Virus record (IMG/VR): IMGVR_UViG_3300002223_000004 | Span: 1 to 43,193 of that record | Direction: 5' to 3' (one strand) | Origin: a virus | Length of the DNA stretch: 43,193 nt | In this document: one piece after another, positions 3,065-43,193 of the stretch | Layout of the letters: every line of letters starts with the position of its first letter | Numbering within the stretch: position 1 is the first letter of the stretch | Notes under the pieces: generated by a model | Databases searched by the model: none | Told to the model about the DNA's origin: nothing | Seen by the model: only the letters and a program-made list of their open reading frames with translations | Program-made: the position numbers and the translations under genes

Positions 3065-4483
3065 ATGGAACCAATACCTATTCAATTCACAAACAAAAAG
3101 ACAGGGCAGGTGCTTAAGTTCAATACCCCACAGGAGGCATTGGACTACGGATTTAGTCCGGAAAAAGTACAATCTAAACTTGAAGCCACGAAAAAGGTAC
3201 AGACGACAGTAGAAACAGGTGACCCTTTTGCTTTTGAGACACAACAGGCAGTTTCCCTGCAACAAGCAAAGGCCGCAGCAGAAGAGGAGACATCCAGAAT
3301 GTCAGCCCAAAAAGAAAAGGCAACAACAATTGGTCTAGTAGACACTATTCTTGAAAGGGATACGGGTGCAATAACTGGTGTGCGAAATCCTTTTAAATAT
3401 CTAACCGGAGAAAATCAGTACACCAAAAATTTAGTAGATCAATTAACTTCCAGTTTGTCGGTAGATGCGAGAGAGAAGATGAAAGGGACGGGGCAAATAT
3501 CCGACTTTGAGTCTAAATTATTAGCAAAGTCTGTTTCTGCTCTAAACACAAATTTATCAAATAAAGATTTTCAAACAGAACTAAACAGAATTAGAAATAT
3601 ATTAAGTGATAAAGAAGCAGATGCAGGATTAGAAGAAGGTGGGGGAAAGGGGATAATTGAAAGTTTATTGTCTCCTCTAATAACTACAGCCGGAAACGTC
3701 GGTGCTTTAGGACAAGTTGGGCTGTCAAGTTTAGTGGGTAAGTTTAATCCACAAGCTGGTGCACAATTAGCTCAAGAAGGACGGGGTGTTATTGGAGGGG
3801 AACTTGCCAAGAGACAAAGAATGGCTTCAGAGCAACCACTTCAAGCGGTTGGTGAACAAGCTGGTGCTTCTGCGGAACTAGCACTGCCCAAACTATTAGG
3901 TATGGCTGGTAGAGTTCCTGCGGTAGCGAAAGCAACCGGTGCAGTTAAAGGTGTAGCAGGTAGAGCAGTACCAAGCACAATTAAAAACATTCTTAATCCG
4001 ATTGGGGCACTTGGTGAATCAAGAACTGCTGCCGGTGCTACGGCTGAAGCGGGTGGTAAGGCATTATCTAACGATAAAATTCTCAAAGGTGTTACAGAAA
4101 AAATAGCCAAGTCCGGTATTACAGAAAGCAAAAAGAAAGCCGCTATTCAAATAGCCGAAAACGCTTTTAAGAAAGGTGGCAAGACAGGAATACAAGAATC
4201 TATTGGCGAGTTTTCAAACGCCGTGGGTTATACAAAAGGGGGTTCAGCTCTGCGCTCTGCGGAAGGACAATATGCAGTCGCTCTTAGGAACACGCTTAAA
4301 GAAATATGGCAAAAGGAATCTCCGGAAGTTTTAAAGATAACAGGACAAATGGCAAAGACATTCCAAGTACAAAAAGGTGTTGGGAAAACATTAAGGAATG
4401 TTGGTGCTTTAGCAGGAGGAATAGGTGGGGCTCTTTATTTAAAAGATTTGCTATCGGGTAGAGGTAGGAGTGATAATGATTAA
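3065..4483 (+). CDS. Candidate internal virion / ejection protein (472 aa)
   Basis: A 472-residue protein with a Lys/Gln/Glu-rich N-terminal half and an Ala/Gly-rich C-terminal half. The latter contains several moderately hydrophobic helices (around residues 200-310 and 445-460) that could insert into or cross a membrane. Together with the preceding gene it fits the pattern of large, helical, membrane-active ejection proteins encoded downstream of tail genes in short-tailed phages. There is no lytic transglycosylase motif and no long tape-measure-like repeat. The role is inferred from composition and position. Confidence 0.5.
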   Translation: MEPIPIQFTNKKTGQVLKFNTPQEALDYGFSPEKVQSKLEATKKVQTTVETGDPFAFETQQAVSLQQAKAAAEEETSRMSAQKEKATTIGLVDTILERDTGAITGVRNPFKYLTGENQYTKNLVDQLTSSLSVDAREKMKGTGQISDFESKLLAKSVSALNTNLSNKDFQTELNRIRNILSDKEADAGLEEGGGKGIIESLLSPLITTAGNVGALGQVGLSSLVGKFNPQAGAQLAQEGRGVIGGELAKRQRMASEQPLQAVGEQAGASAELALPKLLGMAGRVPAVAKATGAVKGVAGRAVPSTIKNILNPIGALGESRTAAGATAEAGGKALSNDKILKGVTEKIAKSGITESKKKAAIQIAENAFKKGGKTGIQESIGEFSNAVGYTKGGSALRSAEGQYAVALRNTLKEIWQKESPEVLKITGQMAKTFQVQKGVGKTLRNVGALAGGIGGALYLKDLLSGRGRSDND

Positions 4484-7283: not shown

Positions 7284-7312
7284 TTGATATTTTAGTGATA
7301 TGTCGCTATAAT
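7284..7312 (+). promoter_or_regulatory. Near-consensus promoter of HNH-AP2 gene (leaderless)
   Basis: TTGATA (7284-7289), 17-nt spacer, perfect TATAAT (7307-7312). The expected transcription start falls on or beside the A of the ATG at 7319, and no Shine-Dalgarno sequence is present. The mRNA should therefore be leaderless. Confidence 0.75.
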
Positions 7313-7318
7313 TAGTTA

Positions 7319-7819
7319 ATGAAAACAATTCCATTAACACAAGGATACTTCACGAAAGTTGATAATGAGGACTACGAAAAATTTGCTTCAATAAGATGGC
7401 ATGCGGCCTTTGGTGCAGATAGTAAACCAAGAGCATGCAGAAAAACAGATTTAAATGGCAAAAAGGTAACACAACACCTCTCTCGTGTAATAATGGAAGC
7501 AAAAAAGGGAACTAATGTAGATCATATTAACCATGATACATTAGATAATAGAAAATCAAATTTGCGATTTTGTAATCCAAGCGAAAATCAAGCAAATATG
7601 ATTAAACCAAAAAACAATACTTCAGGATATAAAGGTGTTTGCTGGAATAAAATGGCTCACAAATGGCAAGTTAATATCTGTAAAGATTGTAAAAGATATT
7701 ATTTTGGACTTCATAAATCGAAGAAAAAAGCAGCCAGAGTTTATGATGATGCTGCAATTAAGATGTTTGGAGAATTTGCAAAGTTAAACTTCCCTAAAAG
7801 AAAAAGTCCAGACAATTAA
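7319..7819 (+). CDS. HNH endonuclease with C-terminal AP2 domain
   Basis: A 166-aa protein. The N-terminal half holds the HNH nuclease core (VDHINHDTLDNRKSNLR, residues about 70-86) and the C-terminal half an AP2 DNA-binding domain (SGYKGVCW, then GLHKSKKKAARVYDDAA). This is a standard free-standing phage homing endonuclease architecture. It carries its own strong promoter and a leaderless start, independent of the lysis operon upstream. The stop codon lies in the loop of a perfect 10-bp hairpin. A divergent paralog is at 13325-13819. Confidence 0.88.
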   Translation: MKTIPLTQGYFTKVDNEDYEKFASIRWHAAFGADSKPRACRKTDLNGKKVTQHLSRVIMEAKKGTNVDHINHDTLDNRKSNLRFCNPSENQANMIKPKNNTSGYKGVCWNKMAHKWQVNICKDCKRYYFGLHKSKKKAARVYDDAAIKMFGEFAKLNFPKRKSPDN

Positions 7820-10898: not shown

Positions 10899-11065
10899 TG
10901 TATAAAAGAAAACCAATGTTTGCTGATTGGGGTTATGGCGAAACAAGGGCAAACAAAGTTATTAAAGCTCTTCAAAGAAAATGTCCTGTATGCGGTAAAG
11001 GTTTCTCTATTTTCGAGCCACGCTTAAAATACCACAAGAAATGCAAGATTAAAGTTGGGGGTTGA
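10898..11065 (+). CDS. Small zinc-finger-like protein (55 aa)
   Basis: A 55-aa protein with CPVCGKGF followed by a C-terminal HKKC, a C-X2-C...H-X3-C arrangement suited to one zinc ion. It is basic overall, so nucleic-acid binding is plausible. It starts in a TAATG overlap. Its stop codon overlaps the -35 box of the promoter for the next gene (11062). Confidence 0.55.
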   Translation: MYKRKPMFADWGYGETRANKVIKALQRKCPVCGKGFSIFEPRLKYHKKCKIKVGG

Positions 11066-11090
11066 CAGCAAAGACTTAATAGACTATACT
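11062..11090 (+). promoter_or_regulatory. Strong promoter, TTGACA-N17-TATACT (leaderless RHH)
   Basis: Perfect -35 TTGACA (11062-11067), exactly 17 nt, then TATACT (11085-11090). The ATG at 11099 is 8 nt beyond the -10, so the transcript has a leader of at most one or two bases. It probably drives the early genes from 11099 onward. Confidence 0.85.
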
Positions 11091-11098
11091 TCTACTTA

Positions 11099-11251
11099 AT
11101 GAATACAAAAAGAGTTACTTTTAGATTAGATCCTGATTTACGCGAAGCACTTGAGGATGCTAAGTGGAAAGAGAAAACTTCAATGAATGACTTAGTTAAT
11201 AGAATTTTAAGAGAATACTTTGAAAGGAAAATCCATGAAAATAAAAGCTAA
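11099..11251 (+). CDS. Ribbon-helix-helix (CopG/Arc-like) regulator
   Basis: A 50-aa protein with the RHH pattern: an N-terminal strand of alternating basic and hydrophobic residues (KRVTFRLD), helix 1 (DLREALEDAKWKE), a TSMNDLVNRIL turn-helix 2 and a basic tail. Dimers of such proteins place the strand in the DNA major groove. Its own strong promoter sits directly before the ATG, so autoregulation by binding there is plausible. It is probably translated from a leaderless mRNA. It overlaps the following gene by 17 nt. Confidence 0.8.
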   Translation: MNTKRVTFRLDPDLREALEDAKWKEKTSMNDLVNRILREYFERKIHENKS

Positions 11252-25083: not shown

Positions 25084-25112
25084 TTTACTTTTGCAATGGC
25101 ATGACATACAAT
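25084..25112 (+). promoter_or_regulatory. Promoter of LAGLIDADG gene (leaderless)
   Basis: TTTACT (25084-25089), 17 nt, TACAAT (25107-25112), with the ATG at 25119 exactly 6 nt beyond the -10. This is the same geometry as the HNH-AP2 promoter at 7284 and close to that of the intein-nested gene at 38361. No Shine-Dalgarno sequence. Confidence 0.6.
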
Positions 25113-25118
25113 AAATGT

Positions 25119-25601
25119 ATGAAGCTAACAAAAGTAGAAAAAGCATATTTGGCAGGAATAATAGATGGTGAGGGATGTATTTCAATTCATAAACAGTTAG
25201 GTACGAGACAATTAAGAAAAAGGCATATTTTATATATTCATATTGCAAATACTGACGAAAAATTGATGCAATATCTTTTAAATAAAGTTGGAGGGAATGT
25301 ATCAAGAAGACAAGTAAAAAAGAAATGGAAGATAAGTAGAGTATGGAGAATTGGTGATAATAAAGCAAAAGAGTTATTAAAACAAGTTTATCCATATTTA
25401 ATTTTAAAGAGAAAACAAGCCAAAATTGGTTTTGAATTAAGAGAAACTTATAACAATAATGAAAGGTTTACGGAAAAAGATAATCATGCCAAATTTGGTT
25501 ATCTTAGGACACAAATATTGAAAGATGAAATCTATGAACAAAGAGACAAATTGTTTAAACAGATGAAAAAATTAAACAAAAAGGGCGCTGGACATGGCTA
25601 G
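25119..25601 (+). CDS. LAGLIDADG homing endonuclease, free-standing
   Basis: About 160 aa, with one LAGLIDADG motif (YLAGIIDGEGCI near residue 10), so it should act as a homodimer. The C-terminal YPYLILKRKQAKIGFEL helix is shared with the nested endonuclease at 38398 (LPYLVIKKERLKLVIKW), and both begin their core with LTK...YLAG. They are paralogs. It is inserted between portal-region genes. The ATG at 25119 is preferred, but an in-frame ATG at 25101 lies inside the promoter. Confidence 0.88.
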   Translation: MKLTKVEKAYLAGIIDGEGCISIHKQLGTRQLRKRHILYIHIANTDEKLMQYLLNKVGGNVSRRQVKKKWKISRVWRIGDNKAKELLKQVYPYLILKRKQAKIGFELRETYNNNERFTEKDNHAKFGYLRTQILKDEIYEQRDKLFKQMKKLNKKGAGHG

Positions 25602-25613
25602 GAAAGGAAAATA

Positions 25614-25865
25614 ATGGCTAAGAAAAGACTAGTAATACTTCGTTATGAGTTTGAGTGGGACCCTAATGAATTGTGGACTCGTAAGAGTGAGTTTGACCAA
25701 TTCATAGGTAAGGCTTTTGGTGCAATAAATGTAGATAGCGAATTTATAGATTTCATAGGTGTAGTTAATGAGGCAAGAATAAGACTTACAAGGAAAGAAG
25801 AACCACCCAAACCGGTAGACAAAAGAAAACTTAAACCTGTTAATGTTTCAGGAAAGGGTAAGTAA
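25614..25865 (+). CDS. Hypothetical protein (83 aa)
   Basis: The ATG follows AGGAAAGGAAAATA. The product has a strand-rich N-terminus (KKRLVILRYEFEWDP), an acidic helical centre and a basic Pro/Lys tail. It overlaps the large repetitive protein gene by TAATG and is likely coexpressed with it. No family is recognised. Confidence 0.5.
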   Translation: MAKKRLVILRYEFEWDPNELWTRKSEFDQFIGKAFGAINVDSEFIDFIGVVNEARIRLTRKEEPPKPVDKRKLKPVNVSGKGK

Positions 25866-27616
25866 TGGCAAAAACTGATACACAACACAATGCGGCAATA
25901 GACGCTAATAAATACCCTACTTTAACCGTAACTTCAGGCACACCAGGTACGGCAGATACCACAGGTACAGCAGATATTGTTAGAGTGGGAGGTAATCCTG
26001 CAACGGGCGCAATGTATGTTCAGGATTTATCGGGAGCCTCTGGAACTACAAACGTATCTGTTGTTAATGGGACTATTAATAGACTGCATGATGCAGGTAC
26101 TTTAGGTTCAATTGCTAATGTAGGTGTAATTCACACAGCGGGTACAGTTAGTGCTTTACCAGATTTGCCTGGTGGAACAGTTGATCTTGTAACAAGAATA
26201 GGAAATATCGGGACGATTGAAAGTGGAACAGTTACGACTACTCTGGCTCTTAATAGCGGAACTATTACTACTATTGCAGCTGGAACACAAAATACTTTAG
26301 GGACGGTTGGTGTAGTGAATAATCTTGTCACGGGAACTATTGCGGCACTAACTGCGATGTCCGTGGGTACTGTTGGAGGTAAAGCCGCCAGTGGTGCGGC
26401 TGCAGTGGCAAATCCTATACTTATGGCAGGAACAGACGCAGGAGGAACTGTCTATGCGCCATTAGTTACGAGTGCTGGTGTTTTATCAACAAGTGCGTCT
26501 CTTGCTCTTAATACGGGAACTATTACAACAATAGCAGCAGGTACACAGAATACGTTAGGTACTGTTGGTACTGTAATAGGTCAAGGTACGTTATCTAATG
26601 TCGGTTCAGTAAATACAATTACAACAGTATCTAATCTAACTAACGGAACTGTTCGTGTAAGTGTTGGTACGATTGTGGTTGGAACGATGGTTGGTCAACA
26701 AGCTAACGCTGGTTCGCTAACAACTAATCCTATTTCTGTTGCTGGAACAGATGCAGGAGGAACGCTTTACGCATTTTTAACAGATACAGCAGGACATTCT
26801 AAAACAGATGTTATTACAGGAACTCTTCAGGCTGCGGGTACAGTAACAGGGGTTGGAGTTGTCACTTCGATTACAAATGTAGTTGCGGGAACCTTGCTTA
26901 ATTCGGGGACTACGACTGGTGTGGGAGTTGTATCAAATCTTACAAACGGTTCAATAAACATTTTAACAGGCACTATTCAAAGCTCTGGAACCACGACAGG
27001 AGTAGGAGTAGTTTCAGGTTTAACTACAGGAACGGTAACAACTATTGTTGCCGGTACTCAAAATACACTTGGAACTGTGGGTATTGTAAATAGTTTACTA
27101 TCTCAAACTGCGGGAACGCTTAATACGTTAGGAACTGTTGGGGTTCTAAATAGTCAGGCTGCTGGTACGCAGCAAACCCTTGGAACTGTAGGTGTTGTTA
27201 ACAATATAGTTACTGGTACTCTTGCGGCTATTACTTCGGTAACCAATCTTGCTGCAGGGACTATTCAGCTCAATCAGAAACCAATTAATTTAGGAACTCC
27301 TTTTACAACTTACGGAACGACTAATGCAGCAGTTTGGGGAACTATAATTGCCGCTTCAGGTGCTGGAACTAAACAGTACGTTGAAAATGTGGATATTGTG
27401 GTTCATTCTGGTACGGTTGATGTTGCTATAACTAATATCGGTGTAGGGGGATCAACAGGAGCAGGAGTAATGGCAAGAGGACAATTTCCTCCTGGTGGAG
27501 GTTTACAGAGGTCATTTTTTCCTCCAGTCGCAAGCGGGACAAACGGTACACTTTCTTATTGGTTAGGAGGAGCTGGGACAGTATCTATTGATATAGTTTA
27601 TTGGCAAGGAGTATAA
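25865..27616 (+). CDS. Repetitive Gly-Thr-Val virion protein (583 aa)
   Basis: Residues about 90-470 consist of degenerate repeats of the type TTIAAGTQNTLGTVGVVNNL, with Gly-Thr at regular intervals, as in a beta-helix or beta-solenoid fibre. The C-terminal 120 residues are non-repetitive and may be a trimer cap. It lies between portal and capsid genes, so a head fibre or tail-associated fibre is likely. A 15-residue unit (VSNLTNGTVRVSVGT) recurs in the protein at 40037 with different codons. There are no enzymatic motifs. Confidence 0.6.
   Translation: MAKTDTQHNAAIDANKYPTLTVTSGTPGTADTTGTADIVRVGGNPATGAMYVQDLSGASGTTNVSVVNGTINRLHDAGTLGSIANVGVIHTAGTVSALPDLPGGTVDLVTRIGNIGTIESGTVTTTLALNSGTITTIAAGTQNTLGTVGVVNNLVTGTIAALTAMSVGTVGGKAASGAAAVANPILMAGTDAGGTVYAPLVTSAGVLSTSASLALNTGTITTIAAGTQNTLGTVGTVIGQGTLSNVGSVNTITTVSNLTNGTVRVSVGTIVVGTMVGQQANAGSLTTNPISVAGTDAGGTLYAFLTDTAGHSKTDVITGTLQAAGTVTGVGVVTSITNVVAGTLLNSGTTTGVGVVSNLTNGSINILTGTIQSSGTTTGVGVVSGLTTGTVTTIVAGTQNTLGTVGIVNSLLSQTAGTLNTLGTVGVLNSQAAGTQQTLGTVGVVNNIVTGTLAAITSVTNLAAGTIQLNQKPINLGTPFTTYGTTNAAVWGTIIAASGAGTKQYVENVDIVVHSGTVDVAITNIGVGGSTGAGVMARGQFPPGGGLQRSFFPPVASGTNGTLSYWLGGAGTVSIDIVYWQGV
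26270..27210 (+). repeat. Degenerate intragenic repeats coding Gly-Thr units
   Basis: At least four near-copies of a unit coding A-GTQ(N/Q)TLGTVG occur, around 26278, 26537, 27050 and 27160. Intervening GTxxxVGVVxxLT units also recur. The DNA varies mainly at third codon positions, so the repeats are maintained at protein level and not by recent duplication. Confidence 0.7.
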
Positions 27617-36550: not shown

Positions 36551-37296
36551 AAAGAAAACCCGTAGTTTGCTTTACCATTGCCGATCACAATAATGTTAAG
36601 TGGGCGTTAATGCTTGAAAAGAGCCTGAGAAAATTCCACACTAAACAGGAGCTTCCCTTAGAGATAATAGCGGGGCACATTCTTGACAATGCTCTAAAAC
36701 AAGATAGTCAATTTTTCTATCGAGCGAAACCAGTTGTTGCCAGTCAACTAATTGAAAATTACGAAGTTGTAATCGGAGCAGATGCCGATAGTATTATCAC
36801 CGCGCCGATTAACGAAGCGTGGGAGGGGGATTTTGACGTTAAACTGGTTTTAAATAGTAATCCACGAGAACACAAAGCATATCCTGTTGGCGTGTGGGAC
36901 ATTGACCCCATACACGAATACGTTAATTGTGGCTTTGTGTCTATGCGCTCAAAAGAGTTCGTTGACCATTGGCACAGGCTTTGCTATTCACCAAGATTTG
37001 AAAGATATCCCATGCGGGAGCAGGATTTTTTAAACATAATAGTTCACTATGGAAACTATAACTGTCAGTTATTAGAGAATACTGATCAGTTTTGGGGTTT
37101 AAGTTCAAAGGGGTATTGGGCTGATATCAAGTTAGACAAAGATAAATTAATTTTACCCGCTAATGATGAATGGAATAAAAACGATAGGATAATTCGCGTT
37201 ATCCATTGGGGTGGCGGCAACGATCCAAATAAAATGAATTTCAATACACGATTCCAGCCTGAAGTGGCTAAGTTTCTAAATGATTTAGTTAAATGA
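36547..37296 (+). CDS. GT-A fold glycosyltransferase
   Basis: A 249-aa protein. The VVIGADADSIITAP segment (around residue 78) holds the DxD motif that binds the nucleotide-sugar metal. NCGFVSMRSKEFVDHW, REQDFLN and the late VIHWGGGNDPNKMNF are typical of GT8/GT-A enzymes, where the last His contributes to metal binding. There is no signal or TM segment, so it acts in the cytoplasm. It is ATGA-coupled to groEL and to the intein-containing glycosyltransferase. The likely donor is the NDP-heptose made by the 15.4-19.8 kb genes, by inference. Confidence 0.78.
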   Translation: MKRKPVVCFTIADHNNVKWALMLEKSLRKFHTKQELPLEIIAGHILDNALKQDSQFFYRAKPVVASQLIENYEVVIGADADSIITAPINEAWEGDFDVKLVLNSNPREHKAYPVGVWDIDPIHEYVNCGFVSMRSKEFVDHWHRLCYSPRFERYPMREQDFLNIIVHYGNYNCQLLENTDQFWGLSSKGYWADIKLDKDKLILPANDEWNKNDRIIRVIHWGGGNDPNKMNFNTRFQPEVAKFLNDLVK

Positions 37297-39395
37297 AAAG
37301 ACGTGACTTAAAAATAATATGGCACAGTAATAGCGTAAATGTTAATAGTGGTTACGCAACCTTTAGTAGGGATTTATTATTTAGGTTACTCAGGGATGGC
37401 TGGAATGTGGCAAATATAGGCTTTTTCGGAGTGGAAGGATATCACACATTTATGAATGGTGAAGATCTTATTGACGATAGATTTAAAGGATTAAAATTAA
37501 AGGTTTATCCTAAAATGAACGACCCTTACGGATCGGATGCTTTAGTTAGCCATTCAGCAGATTTCGGCGCTCATGTTGCTTTTGCGATGTTGGATATCTG
37601 GACGATTCAACCGCAAGCACTTCAAGAATTAAATAACAATGGAACTAAATTCATACCATACTTACCGATTGACCAAGAACCTATTTACACACCGATATTA
37701 AGTAATTTAAACCATGCTTATAAGATAATTACTTTCGCGAAATACGGCCAGAAACAACTTCAGAATGCGGGATATACTTCAACTTTAATCTTAGAAGGAG
37801 TGGATACTGAGATATTTAAACCAATGGATAAAGCAGAATGTAGAAAAGAGCTTGACTTACCGCAAGAGAATTTCTTTTTTGGAATGATAGGTGCTAATAA
37901 AGAAAATCCGCCAAGAAAGGGTTATCAAGAGGCTATTGAGGCTTTTAAAATGTTTTTAGACAAACATCCAGAGGCGAGAATGTTTTTCCACACTCAACAA
38001 GTTGCGCCAGGAGGCTTTCCCATACTTGAGTTTGGTAAGTATCTTAATATCCACGACAAGATGTACTTTTTAAATCCTTATAAGAGTTCTTTTGCGTCAG
38101 ACTCACACAAGATAGCGAGAGAAATAAACACTTTTGATATTCTTCTACACCCTTCACAAACCGAAGGCTTTGGACTTTTACCGGTTGAAGCTCAGTCGTG
38201 TTTTCCTGAAGAGATTAAAGTTTCTATGGATAATATATTATCTGGACAAGTAAGAAAATTTACTGGTGAGTTGGTTGAAATAAAAACCAGCAGAGGAACC
38301 ATCAGGTCAACACCAGAACATCCGTTCTATACAGATAATGGGTGGGTTAAAGCGGGAGAATTGACCAAAGAGTATCACCTATTGTATAATAACGAACATG
38401 ACAAGAGGGGCGTTTACAAAGGAAGAATCAAGGAGGTTTTTGAGTCTCTATCGAGAACATACACTAGAGGAAGTGGCAAGAATCATGAACAGGACATACA
38501 GTTCAGTTCTATGGCACAAAAAAAAGGCGGGCTATCGAAAAACAATGAAAGAGAGATTGAAAATGAAAAAAGTAAAGCTAACAAAGATAGATTTGTCGTA
38601 TTTAGCGGGGATGATAGACGGAGACGGCCAAGTCACAATAAGAAAAATGAGTGGTGGGAAATGGAAACCCTTAATATCAATAACAAACGATTCAGAAACA
38701 TTGATGAATTGGTTAAGACAAAAAATACCAACGAAATCTTCCTATATAGAAAAAAGGGGGTTGAGGGAAAATGGTCAAATGGGTTATTTGTTTCATATAA
38801 CAGGGATTTCTTATCTCAATTTTTTCAAGGATATTTTGCCTTATCTGGTGATAAAAAAAGAGAGATTGAAACTAGTAATCAAATGGACAGAAATGAGACT
38901 AAAACAAGGAAACAACGAACCAGCAAATTCAGAGAAATTTCTAACGATAGTGAAAACGATAAGGCATTTGAACTCGTCAAAATTGAGAGCATACAAAGAA
39001 GTACAGTAAAAAATCTGCTAGTTTATAATTTTACAACAAATAGCAATGTTTATCTGGCAAACGGGTATCTCGTTCATAATTGTGGAGTCCCGCCGATTGT
39101 AAATAATTGCCACTCACAACCTGAGATGATAATTGATGGCAAAACGGGTGAGATTTGCGAAATAGGTAAAGGTTGGTTTAGAAATATGAGCGCTTATGTT
39201 TATCCCGCTGACGTTAATTCTTTATACGACAAAATGGAAACTTTATACGCTAAAGTAAAAGACGAAAAAACAAGAAAGCAGATCGCCAAAGACGCCAGAC
39301 AAAATGTACTAGATAATTACAATATCGAAAAAGTGGCCGATAAATTCATTAGTTTCTTGGAAACTTTACAAGACGAGATTCTTCCTATAAAATAA
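37293..39395 (+). CDS. GT-B (GT4-like) glycosyltransferase interrupted by intein
   Basis: A 700-residue precursor. The exteins (residues 1-302 and 597-700) join to a 406-aa GT4-type enzyme: N-terminal acceptor domain, FFGMIGANKENPPRKGY start of the donor domain, and HPSQTEGFGLLPVEAQS|CGVPPIVNN, the EX7E-type donor-binding motif. The intein (residues 303-596) sits inside this active-site motif, directly before the conserved Cys-Gly. The enzyme should be inactive until splicing. It is last in the ATGA-coupled operon. The gene remains one open frame over 2.1 kb. Confidence 0.88.
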   Translation: MKRRDLKIIWHSNSVNVNSGYATFSRDLLFRLLRDGWNVANIGFFGVEGYHTFMNGEDLIDDRFKGLKLKVYPKMNDPYGSDALVSHSADFGAHVAFAMLDIWTIQPQALQELNNNGTKFIPYLPIDQEPIYTPILSNLNHAYKIITFAKYGQKQLQNAGYTSTLILEGVDTEIFKPMDKAECRKELDLPQENFFFGMIGANKENPPRKGYQEAIEAFKMFLDKHPEARMFFHTQQVAPGGFPILEFGKYLNIHDKMYFLNPYKSSFASDSHKIAREINTFDILLHPSQTEGFGLLPVEAQSCFPEEIKVSMDNILSGQVRKFTGELVEIKTSRGTIRSTPEHPFYTDNGWVKAGELTKEYHLLYNNEHDKRGVYKGRIKEVFESLSRTYTRGSGKNHEQDIQFSSMAQKKGGLSKNNEREIENEKSKANKDRFVVFSGDDRRRRPSHNKKNEWWEMETLNINNKRFRNIDELVKTKNTNEIFLYRKKGVEGKWSNGLFVSYNRDFLSQFFQGYFALSGDKKREIETSNQMDRNETKTRKQRTSKFREISNDSENDKAFELVKIESIQRSTVKNLLVYNFTTNSNVYLANGYLVHNCGVPPIVNNCHSQPEMIIDGKTGEICEIGKGWFRNMSAYVYPADVNSLYDKMETLYAKVKDEKTRKQIAKDARQNVLDNYNIEKVADKFISFLETLQDEILPIK
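38361..38390 (+). promoter_or_regulatory. Promoter inside intein for nested endonuclease
   Basis: TTGACC (38361-38366), 18 nt, perfect TATAAT (38385-38390). The ATG of the nested endonuclease (38398) is 7 nt past the -10, predicting a leaderless mRNA. These bases also code the end of intein block B and the adjoining linker (ELTKEYHLLYNN). The arrangement matches the promoters of the other endonucleases at 7284 and 25084. Confidence 0.75.
38398..39009 (+). CDS. LAGLIDADG endonuclease nested out of frame in intein
   Basis: A 203-aa protein in the +1 frame relative to the intein. Residues about 1-48 form a Myb/HTH-like DNA-binding region (TKEESRRFLSLYREHTLEE). The core begins LTKIDLSYLAGMIDGDGQV (around residue 60) with one LAGLIDADG motif, followed by NDSETLMNWLRQKI and ILPYLVIKKERLKL. 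It resembles the free-standing endonuclease at 25119. It has no Shine-Dalgarno sequence but its own promoter. Its stop lies just before intein block F, so it occupies exactly the slot of a conventional in-frame endonuclease domain. Confidence 0.88.
   Translation: MTRGAFTKEESRRFLSLYREHTLEEVARIMNRTYSSVLWHKKKAGYRKTMKERLKMKKVKLTKIDLSYLAGMIDGDGQVTIRKMSGGKWKPLISITNDSETLMNWLRQKIPTKSSYIEKRGLRENGQMGYLFHITGISYLNFFKDILPYLVIKKERLKLVIKWTEMRLKQGNNEPANSEKFLTIVKTIRHLNSSKLRAYKEVQ
39365..39393 (+). promoter_or_regulatory. Module C promoter, TTTACA-N17-TAAAAT
   Basis: TTTACA (39365-39370), 17 nt, TAAAAT (39388-39393), inside the end of the glycosyltransferase gene. The +1 hairpin starts 6 nt later. It is upstream of the tail/fibre block. 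Confidence 0.55.
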
Positions 39396-42036: not shown

Positions 42037-43161
42037 TTGTCACTCATTAGAAGCAGAAATTTATTACACTTAAATATTCCTTACACCCGCCTTCGGGAAA
42101 CTGAAGCGGCGGGCACTACTTCATTGCGAGTACAAAACACCGAAGGATTAACTACAGGTTGGGGTATTCAAATAGGCGGTGTCGGACACGAACAAACTGA
42201 GGTTGTAATAGGTACTAACTCAAATGGAACGACAATAACTTCACCCGCAACTACTTACGAACACCCTGAAGATACTCCTATCTACTTTATTAAATACAAT
42301 CAAGTAGTTTTTGAAAGAAGCACGGCAGGTACTACGGGCACGGCAACCCCAATGACTAATGGCACAGTTACTTATCAACCTAATGATTTCTTTACAGTAT
42401 TCGATGACACAAGTGGATCTTCTACTTACGGATATAGGACTTATTTCAGAAATTCGGTTTTAGCAGTCAATTCAACTGAAAGTGATTGGACTACTTTTGC
42501 GGGACATGACTTTTATTCACTTGGAAAAATGCGCGACAGAATGAAAAGAAAACTTTGGAACTCAACTTACTTAGAAGATCAGGACATAGACGATTGGATA
42601 AACGAATGTAAAGACAAAATGGCCAATAAAGTAACCTCGGCCAATGAGGATTACACAATGGGTACGGTTAATGTGGGTTTCGGAACTGATGGACTTGGAA
42701 CTATCACACAAGCGGACTTTACTTTTCCAAGACGTGTTTGGATAACTTATAACGGATCGGATAAATTTGTATCGACTAAATTCGGAATAAATGATATTAC
42801 GCCTAATCAAATCTATTCAAGTTCGCATCCATATCATGCTTGGATTGATAACAATGTATTTGTAGTTGAACCCGAAGGTCCGGGAACTGCTGAGATCGTT
42901 TATCAAAGATTTGGTACAACAATGGTAAACGATACGGATATTTTACCAGTGCCAATGAGAAGCTATACGGATATATTTGTTGACTATTGTAAAAGTCAGG
43001 CTAAAAGCAAGGACGGCAAAGAAGAAGAAGCACAGATTATTTTACAAAGAGTTGGAACAGCGGTTGATGATTTCGCACTTAATATTGCGCCAAGAGATCG
43101 CACGGGCGTAACACTTGTCGATTTGGTCGAGCCTGTACAGGGCGATTCATTCGGGTTTTAA
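42037..43161 (+). CDS. Head-tail adaptor (connector) protein
   Basis: A 374-aa protein with a TTG start after AAGGGGGG. The N-terminal 150 residues are a beta-rich immunoglobulin-like insertion. From about residue 165 a helical adaptor core follows (LGKMRDRMKRKLWNSTYLED, then DDWINECKDKMANKVTS), and a beta/helical end (SYTDIFVDYCKSQAKSKDG) completes a gp6/gp11-type connector of podoviruses that bridges portal and nozzle. The adjacent nozzle-like gene at 42 supports this. The stop is at 43161, inside the terminal repeat. Confidence 0.7.
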   Translation: MSLIRSRNLLHLNIPYTRLRETEAAGTTSLRVQNTEGLTTGWGIQIGGVGHEQTEVVIGTNSNGTTITSPATTYEHPEDTPIYFIKYNQVVFERSTAGTTGTATPMTNGTVTYQPNDFFTVFDDTSGSSTYGYRTYFRNSVLAVNSTESDWTTFAGHDFYSLGKMRDRMKRKLWNSTYLEDQDIDDWINECKDKMANKVTSANEDYTMGTVNVGFGTDGLGTITQADFTFPRRVWITYNGSDKFVSTKFGINDITPNQIYSSSHPYHAWIDNNVFVVEPEGPGTAEIVYQRFGTTMVNDTDILPVPMRSYTDIFVDYCKSQAKSKDGKEEEAQIILQRVGTAVDDFALNIAPRDRTGVTLVDLVEPVQGDSFGF

Positions 43162-43193
43162 TATGCCAATTTTACGCCAATTCAATATACCAG
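43122..43193. repeat. Terminal redundancy, right copy
   Basis: Exact copy of bases 1-72. Joining the ends gives one uninterrupted adaptor-to-nozzle gene pair. Confidence 0.95.

Follow-up and report, generated by a model that had tools for sequence, protein, structure and literature searches.

A phage intein with a predicted LAGLIDADG homing endonuclease gene overprinted in its +1 frame

The glycosyltransferase gene of a phage was found to contain an insert that is very probably a mobile intein, with its homing endonuclease encoded by a separate gene overprinted on the intein in the +1 frame; protein splicing, expression of the nuclease and DNA cleavage are inferred. Judged by sequence comparison, both frames are kept open under selection, the splicing residues are present, the predicted I-CreI-like fold and its motif are intact and the layout recurs in ten relatives. 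The usual arrangement, as the preliminary description of this DNA had said, is an in-frame fusion, with the endonuclease translated as part of the intein (PMC3943268).

The intein and the gene within it

The stretch of DNA analyzed here (the window) is IMG/VR virus record IMGVR_UViG_3300002223_000004, 43,193 nt in length. It carries a 72-bp direct terminal repeat (positions 1–72 are the same as 43122–43193), and a second IMG/VR contig, 3300025010_000649, is identical to it over 9,901 bp and crosses the end junction; this contig may share reads with the window and thus possibly provides no independent confirmation. Given the repeat and the contig across the junction, the phage genome looks complete, circular or terminally redundant, at ~43.1 kb. 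No nucleotide similarity to the window was found among phage records. Elsewhere in the genome, a 583-aa protein of repeated GTV/NNLVTGT-like motifs (25865–27616) is probably a virion structural protein. The features discussed below are as follows.

37293..39395, plus strand: GT4 glycosyltransferase gene with intein, 700 aa (Pfam Glycos_transf_1 E 5.8e-11; PHROG glycosyltransferase 1.6e-21)
38199..39080, plus strand: intein, 294 aa, inserted at EAQS^CGVP (Pfam Intein_splicing, PF14890, E 1.5e-9)
38199..38462, plus strand: N-terminal Hint part with Cys1 and TPEH, its last ~22 codons shared with the endonuclease gene
38361..38390, plus strand: sigma-70-like promoter TTGACC-N18-TATAAT (11/12), ending 7 nt before the ATG at 38398
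38398..39009, plus strand: predicted homing endonuclease gene, 203 aa, +1 frame relative to the intein
38398..38529, plus strand: N-terminal helix-turn-helix (HTH) part (model helices 8–20, 23–29 and 34–44; weak Sigma70_r4 and D5-like PHROG matches)
38569..38991, plus strand: single-motif LAGLIDADG domain, I-CreI-like (phmmer aa 58–198; Foldseek I-CreI E 4.5e-8)
38602..38628, plus strand: LAGLIDADG motif (LAGMIDGDG) from alignments, acidic catalytic residue retained
38961..39080, plus strand: C-terminal Hint part with blocks F and G and HN at 39075–39080; 38961–39009 double-coded with the endonuclease C-terminus

The glycosyltransferase consists of an N-extein (37293–38198) and a C-extein (39081–39392) on either side of the 882-bp insert, and its frame runs without interruption over 700 aa. 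A split intein, that is a fractured gene, was rejected as a reading since the host gene is one continuous ORF. Uninterrupted homologues are present in phages Mae-JY09 and phiPsal1, in which EAQACG is continuous. The preliminary description had placed an intein with Cys1, TPEH, His-Asn and an extein Cys in this gene, and all four are located where it put them: Cys1 (TGT) at 38199–38201, TPEH at 38310–38321, HN at 39075–39080 with the terminal Asn at 39078–39080, and the extein Cys at 39081. The Pfam Intein_splicing match lies in the host frame, is above the cut-off and falls into two halves on either side of the endonuclease region. An AlphaFold model of the intein has a Hint core with pLDDT values of 85–97 at most of residues 1–88 and 255–294 and a middle below 50. 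Its top Foldseek matches are inteins with E-values of about 1e-3, which are modest because of the disordered middle, and the block F region deviates from the commonest consensus. We take the element at 38199–39080 to be an intein, which its residues predict to be capable of splicing.

The middle of the intein had been described as low-complexity. There is indeed no in-frame endonuclease in it, but the segment is the off-frame reading of the endonuclease gene and has no low-complexity sequence of its own. Nor does the gene fill exactly the gap between blocks B and F, as had been proposed. It overlaps both Hint edges, such that intein residues ~67–88 and ~255–270 are double-coded, and a few dozen residues would therefore be functional in both frames. 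We also rejected a canonical endonuclease-containing intein, since the endonuclease is not in frame and instead occupies the +1 frame with its own start.

The 203-aa ORF is present as first described. Compared with PDB chains it matched I-CreI and I-MsoI (natural I-CreI ~1e-6, best chain 1.2e-12). Its AlphaFold model has a mean pLDDT of 87.8 and the α-β-β-α-β-β-α topology of the LAGLIDADG fold, and the top Foldseek matches of the model are I-CreI structures. The sequence similarity and the predicted fold thus point to an I-CreI-type LAGLIDADG homing endonuclease that would cleave DNA and, as the 203 residues contain one LAGLIDADG motif only, should act as a homodimer. The window also encodes a freestanding LAGLIDADG paralogue (25101–25601) that is 34% identical, in which TACAAT is found 6 nt upstream of an internal ATG at 25119.

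Two open frames in a family of eleven elements

How the intein frame stays open can be read from the codons of the endonuclease gene. A host-frame stop forms when a T-ending endonuclease codon precedes AA, AG or GA. Of the 47 such sites at which a synonym ending in T was available, none has T (0/47), as compared to 34/97 at the remaining sites of this gene and 41% over the rest of the phage genome. It is this avoidance that keeps the intein frame free of stops. When synonymous codons were resampled, ~19 host-frame stops were expected in the window and none is observed (P(0) ~5e-12). Over the same region the third frame is interrupted by 36 stops, and in 37 other genes of the phage no alternative frame stays open for more than 95 codons. 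Over all 11 members of the family described below there are no host-frame stops against ~137 expected, with P(0) per member ranging from 2e-3 to 5e-12. Chance is excluded as the source of the long double-open frame, in keeping with the earlier remark that two such frames would be unlikely to arise by chance.

Relatives were sought in viral and genomic collections with an alignment of the endonuclease; single-sequence scans of viral contigs were insufficient and produced nothing beyond the identical contig. Each distinct endonuclease (n=322) was then examined for a long open frame overlying it on the same strand. The overprinted layout was found in 11 of the 322, all at one frame offset, and the other sense offset in 0/322. 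Besides the window, the members are eight viral contigs (L013, L016, L017 and L174–L178), a Bathyarchaeota MAG (L093) and a Terraquivivens MAG (L094). The first HMM was built from six overlapping members, which rank at its top by construction since it was trained on them; L174–L178 were outside the training set, and an unbiased view is given by ranking with the window sequence, whose best matches are mostly within inteins at the same offset. A search of 398 genomes from the phylum of the Bathyarchaeota member recovered only the two members that were already known. The search for homologous inteins with the same offset that the preliminary description had called for thus led to ten, in other exteins and other organisms.

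The Pfam Intein_splicing profile matches the window, L013, L093, L094, L176, L177 and L178 past its cut-off, reaching 1e-15 among the relatives, and Hint matches are weaker in L174, L016, L017 and L175. Cys1 and the terminal HN are present in 11/11 members, the +1 residue being C or S, and the block B His is replaced by Asn in L013 and L176. In L016, L017 and L094 the endonuclease overlap extends to within 3–4 residues of the intein end. The 11 elements occupy six insertion sites in three extein families (GT4, DUF2201 and DUF5131), and intein-less homologues of GT4 sites a and b occur in phages Mae-JY09 and phiPsal1.

GT4 site a: window, L174, L175, L177
GT4 site b: L013, L176
GT4 site c: L094
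DUF2201 metallopeptidase/VWA site d: L016, L017
DUF2201 metallopeptidase/VWA site e: L178
DUF5131 site: L093

By these sequence features the 11 members appear to be a recurrent family of mobile elements that was previously overlooked. Long in-frame ORFs in L061, L227, L272 and L051 were considered as in-frame ancestors and set aside since they contain no Hint domain. In a separate phage contig (L258, IMGVR_UViG_3300033141_005269), four or more HTH-LAGLIDADG genes are interspersed with interrupted ATPase/DUF2201-like genes, the latter of the same family as the exteins of L016, L017 and L178.

The recurrence bears on two readings that do without an overprinted gene. The exact window sequence is known from one or two non-independent contigs only, which would leave room for an assembly or sequencing artefact in which two indels displaced an ordinary in-frame endonuclease domain, a refuting outcome that had been raised from the start. 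Two local indels are ruled out, however, because ten further records of viral and archaeal origin have the same offset; codon choice that avoids intein-frame stops cannot come from indels, and the second contig is identical. We regard an artefact as scarcely credible. Alternatively, the insert might be an RNA intron that splices itself and harbors an endonuclease ORF, the Hint-like host frame being accidental. I-CreI itself is intron-encoded and, outside inteins, the nearest relatives of the endonuclease are either freestanding or in interrupted genes, but Rfam intron matches, including a group I core, were found in 0/11 loci, while the strength of the Pfam matches in relatives, the conserved Cys1 and HN^C/S and a host frame open under selection all argue against an intron, making it highly improbable. 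An overprinted, non-fused endonuclease, as first proposed, accounts for the +1 frame and for the ten relatives that share it.

The two frames are constrained in different ways. Within the endonuclease, codon position 3 varies more than positions 1 and 2. Host-frame identity over the overlap is at or below the level expected from the endonuclease protein and openness alone in the pairs window–L174, L093–L178 and L013–L176; it is borderline for window–L175 and in excess in the two closest pairs only. As it is explained in distant pairs by the endonuclease and openness, the host-frame middle would be mainly filler. From sequence comparison and modeling, the endonuclease frame is the conserved one in the overlap, and the intein frame is predicted to be disordered filler except at the double-coded Hint ends. 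Relatives in which only one frame is conserved had been named as evidence against overprinting; what is observed is that both are conserved, the endonuclease frame through its sequence and the intein frame by staying open and at the Hint ends. These data also speak to whether the +1 ORF is a decayed passenger, no longer used in an intein that splices. Endonuclease activity is commonly lost in inteins and several members have no expression signals, but the catalytic motif and fold are intact in 11 divergent members, changes at position 3 exceed those at positions 1 and 2, and the endonuclease sequence is conserved where the overlapping intein-frame sequence is not. Decay is thus a very unlikely explanation.

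In a tree of 56 endonucleases the 11 members cluster and a single origin is not rejected (AU p=0.28); once four long-branch rows were removed, they fell on one side of one weakly supported branch. Monophyly of the overprinted endonucleases is thus weakly supported by the sequences. Endonuclease clades tend to follow the insertion site, with support of 100/96 for three of the four site-a members, 94/88 for site b and 100/99 for site d, as would be expected if each endonuclease recognizes its own site; L177 (site a) lies outside the group of the other site-a endonucleases. Distances between endonucleases correlate with those between Hint domains (r=0.69, P=1e-4), which suggests that the two move together. 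As to ancestry, a freestanding or intron-type HTH-LAGLIDADG gene probably entered a small intein out of frame, at the place usually taken by the endonuclease.

Expression signals and a model for homing

The window has a near-consensus sigma-70-like promoter just upstream of the endonuclease ATG, which calls for some caution in that TATAAT also encodes host-frame YN, a pair recurrent at the same point in relatives. L175 has TTGACG-N17-TATAAT, likewise 11/12 and ending 7 nt before the ATG, and the host-frame residues over its -35 differ from those of the window. Each of these two promoters is matched by 0.13% of random positions. When a shared promoter or Shine-Dalgarno site was sought across the family, a promoter was seen in the window and L175 and more weakly in L174, and none in the others, two of which come from archaea, to which sigma-70 rules are not applicable. 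No Shine-Dalgarno site was seen before the window ATG at 38398. The whole window contains three plus-strand 11/12 sigma-70 sites, each followed after 6–8 nt by an ATG that lacks a Shine-Dalgarno site (38398, 7319 and 11099), the other two lying within 7284–7319 and 11062–11099; their positions suggest that this phage has leaderless genes. The sequences thus suggest a leaderless mRNA for the endonuclease in the window and L175.

In 11/11 members a start codon lies at the same point, just before the HTH, and upstream of it the nearest stop in the endonuclease frame is 6–87 nt away (33 nt in the window and 6 nt in L178). This arrangement weighs on programmed +1 ribosomal frameshifting, by which the endonuclease would be made as a fusion to the N-terminal half of the intein rather than by internal initiation. 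All 11 members are at the offset that a +1 shift would reach and most have no visible Shine-Dalgarno site, as frameshifting would predict. The offset is, however, also accounted for by common descent and, in most members, by the fewer stops expected in this frame; moreover, the upstream stop leaves little room for a conserved shift site, and the promoter lies 7 nt before the start in the window and L175. As the endonuclease frame opens only so shortly before a commonly placed start codon, we consider frameshifting unlikely.

In the model that we favor, an intein with a separate, overprinted endonuclease gene, the precursor glycosyltransferase would be translated through the whole insert, and the Hint halves would fold around a disordered filler peptide of ~165 aa. 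The intein would then splice out and restore the glycosyltransferase. The endonuclease would be made separately by internal initiation, in the window and L175 on a leaderless mRNA transcribed from a promoter of its own, and would dimerize and cut intein-less alleles at the extein insertion site. Repair would copy the whole 882-bp insert, completing homing. As the nuclease gene is enclosed in the DNA of the splicing element, the two would be inherited jointly without being fused as proteins.

Known systems and implications

The nearest precedent is the ShiLan domain (2025), a hidden out-of-frame HNH insertion in which the authors find no splicing domain and which they conclude is not an intein (PMC11855218). 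As in the family described here, the ShiLan endonuclease gene lies in another frame of an insertion that is open in the host frame, the phage distribution is patchy and there is no clear ribosome-binding site. The two differ in that the ShiLan nuclease is an HNH enzyme without a splicing domain, whereas our family combines a LAGLIDADG endonuclease with the two halves of a Hint domain and with splicing residues, and it extends to archaea and three extein types. The same paper cites, for overlapping frames, a preprint by Gosselin et al. (2025) on actinobacteriophage inteins of "non-canonical architecture"; going by the citing paper's description, these may be related layouts, and part of the overprinted-intein idea may already have been described there. 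Canonical mobile inteins such as PI-SceI resemble the window intein in having the endonuclease in the slot between the Hint halves and a conserved extein site, but theirs is an in-frame domain, whereas the window has a separate overprinted gene with one LAGLIDADG motif and an HTH. I-CreI and I-MsoI are intron ORFs without an N-terminal HTH. The window endonuclease is like them in fold, motif and sequence and differs in having the HTH and in overlapping an intein in another frame.

Nucleases antisense to inteins were also observed. In Gordonia phage Vivi2 (L011), an intein in a MuF head protein, a relative by its Hint domain, has a 291-aa ORF on the minus strand (~3103–3942) with HTH domains and a VSR-like PD-(D/E)XK match (MTES_1575), relatives of which occur in 127 phage records. 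Five further phages were inspected (L341–L345; Salmonella, Haemophilus, Pseudomonas, Klebsiella and E. coli), and each has an ORF on the strand opposite a MuF-type intein gene and in register with its codons, with no TTA, CTA or TCA codon and mostly with a GAGG-like site before its ATG. An antisense nuclease is thus found in the MuF inteins of 6/6 phages inspected. With these besides the sense family, overprinted intein endonucleases seem to have arisen at least twice. We lean towards the view that overprinting is a general means, so far overlooked, by which inteins carry a separate endonuclease, with at least two origins (sense +1 LAGLIDADG and antisense MuF). Antisense ORFs over endonucleases in contigs with major-capsid-like genes were set aside from the sense family as a different matter; in these eight AT-rich viral contigs (L219, L022, L267, L058, L204, L028, L032 and L319) a LAGLIDADG gene lies opposite an open frame that enters a major-capsid-like 3′ part, and L319 alone has a group I intron match, a weak one (E 0.0015).

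In the textbook intein, the splicing and nuclease functions reside in a single chain and are expressed at one level. With an overprinted gene the two are uncoupled: the nuclease could be produced early and freely, whereas splicing of the intein is still required. Stops have to be avoided in a gene that functions, and this would also lock the nuclease sequence in place, which changes what the homing cycle leads one to expect of endonuclease decay. Intein surveys that read one frame miss such mobile elements. The family provides natural examples of long gene overlaps in which constraint is clearly divided between the two genes, as well as new putative single-motif meganucleases whose target sites can be inferred.
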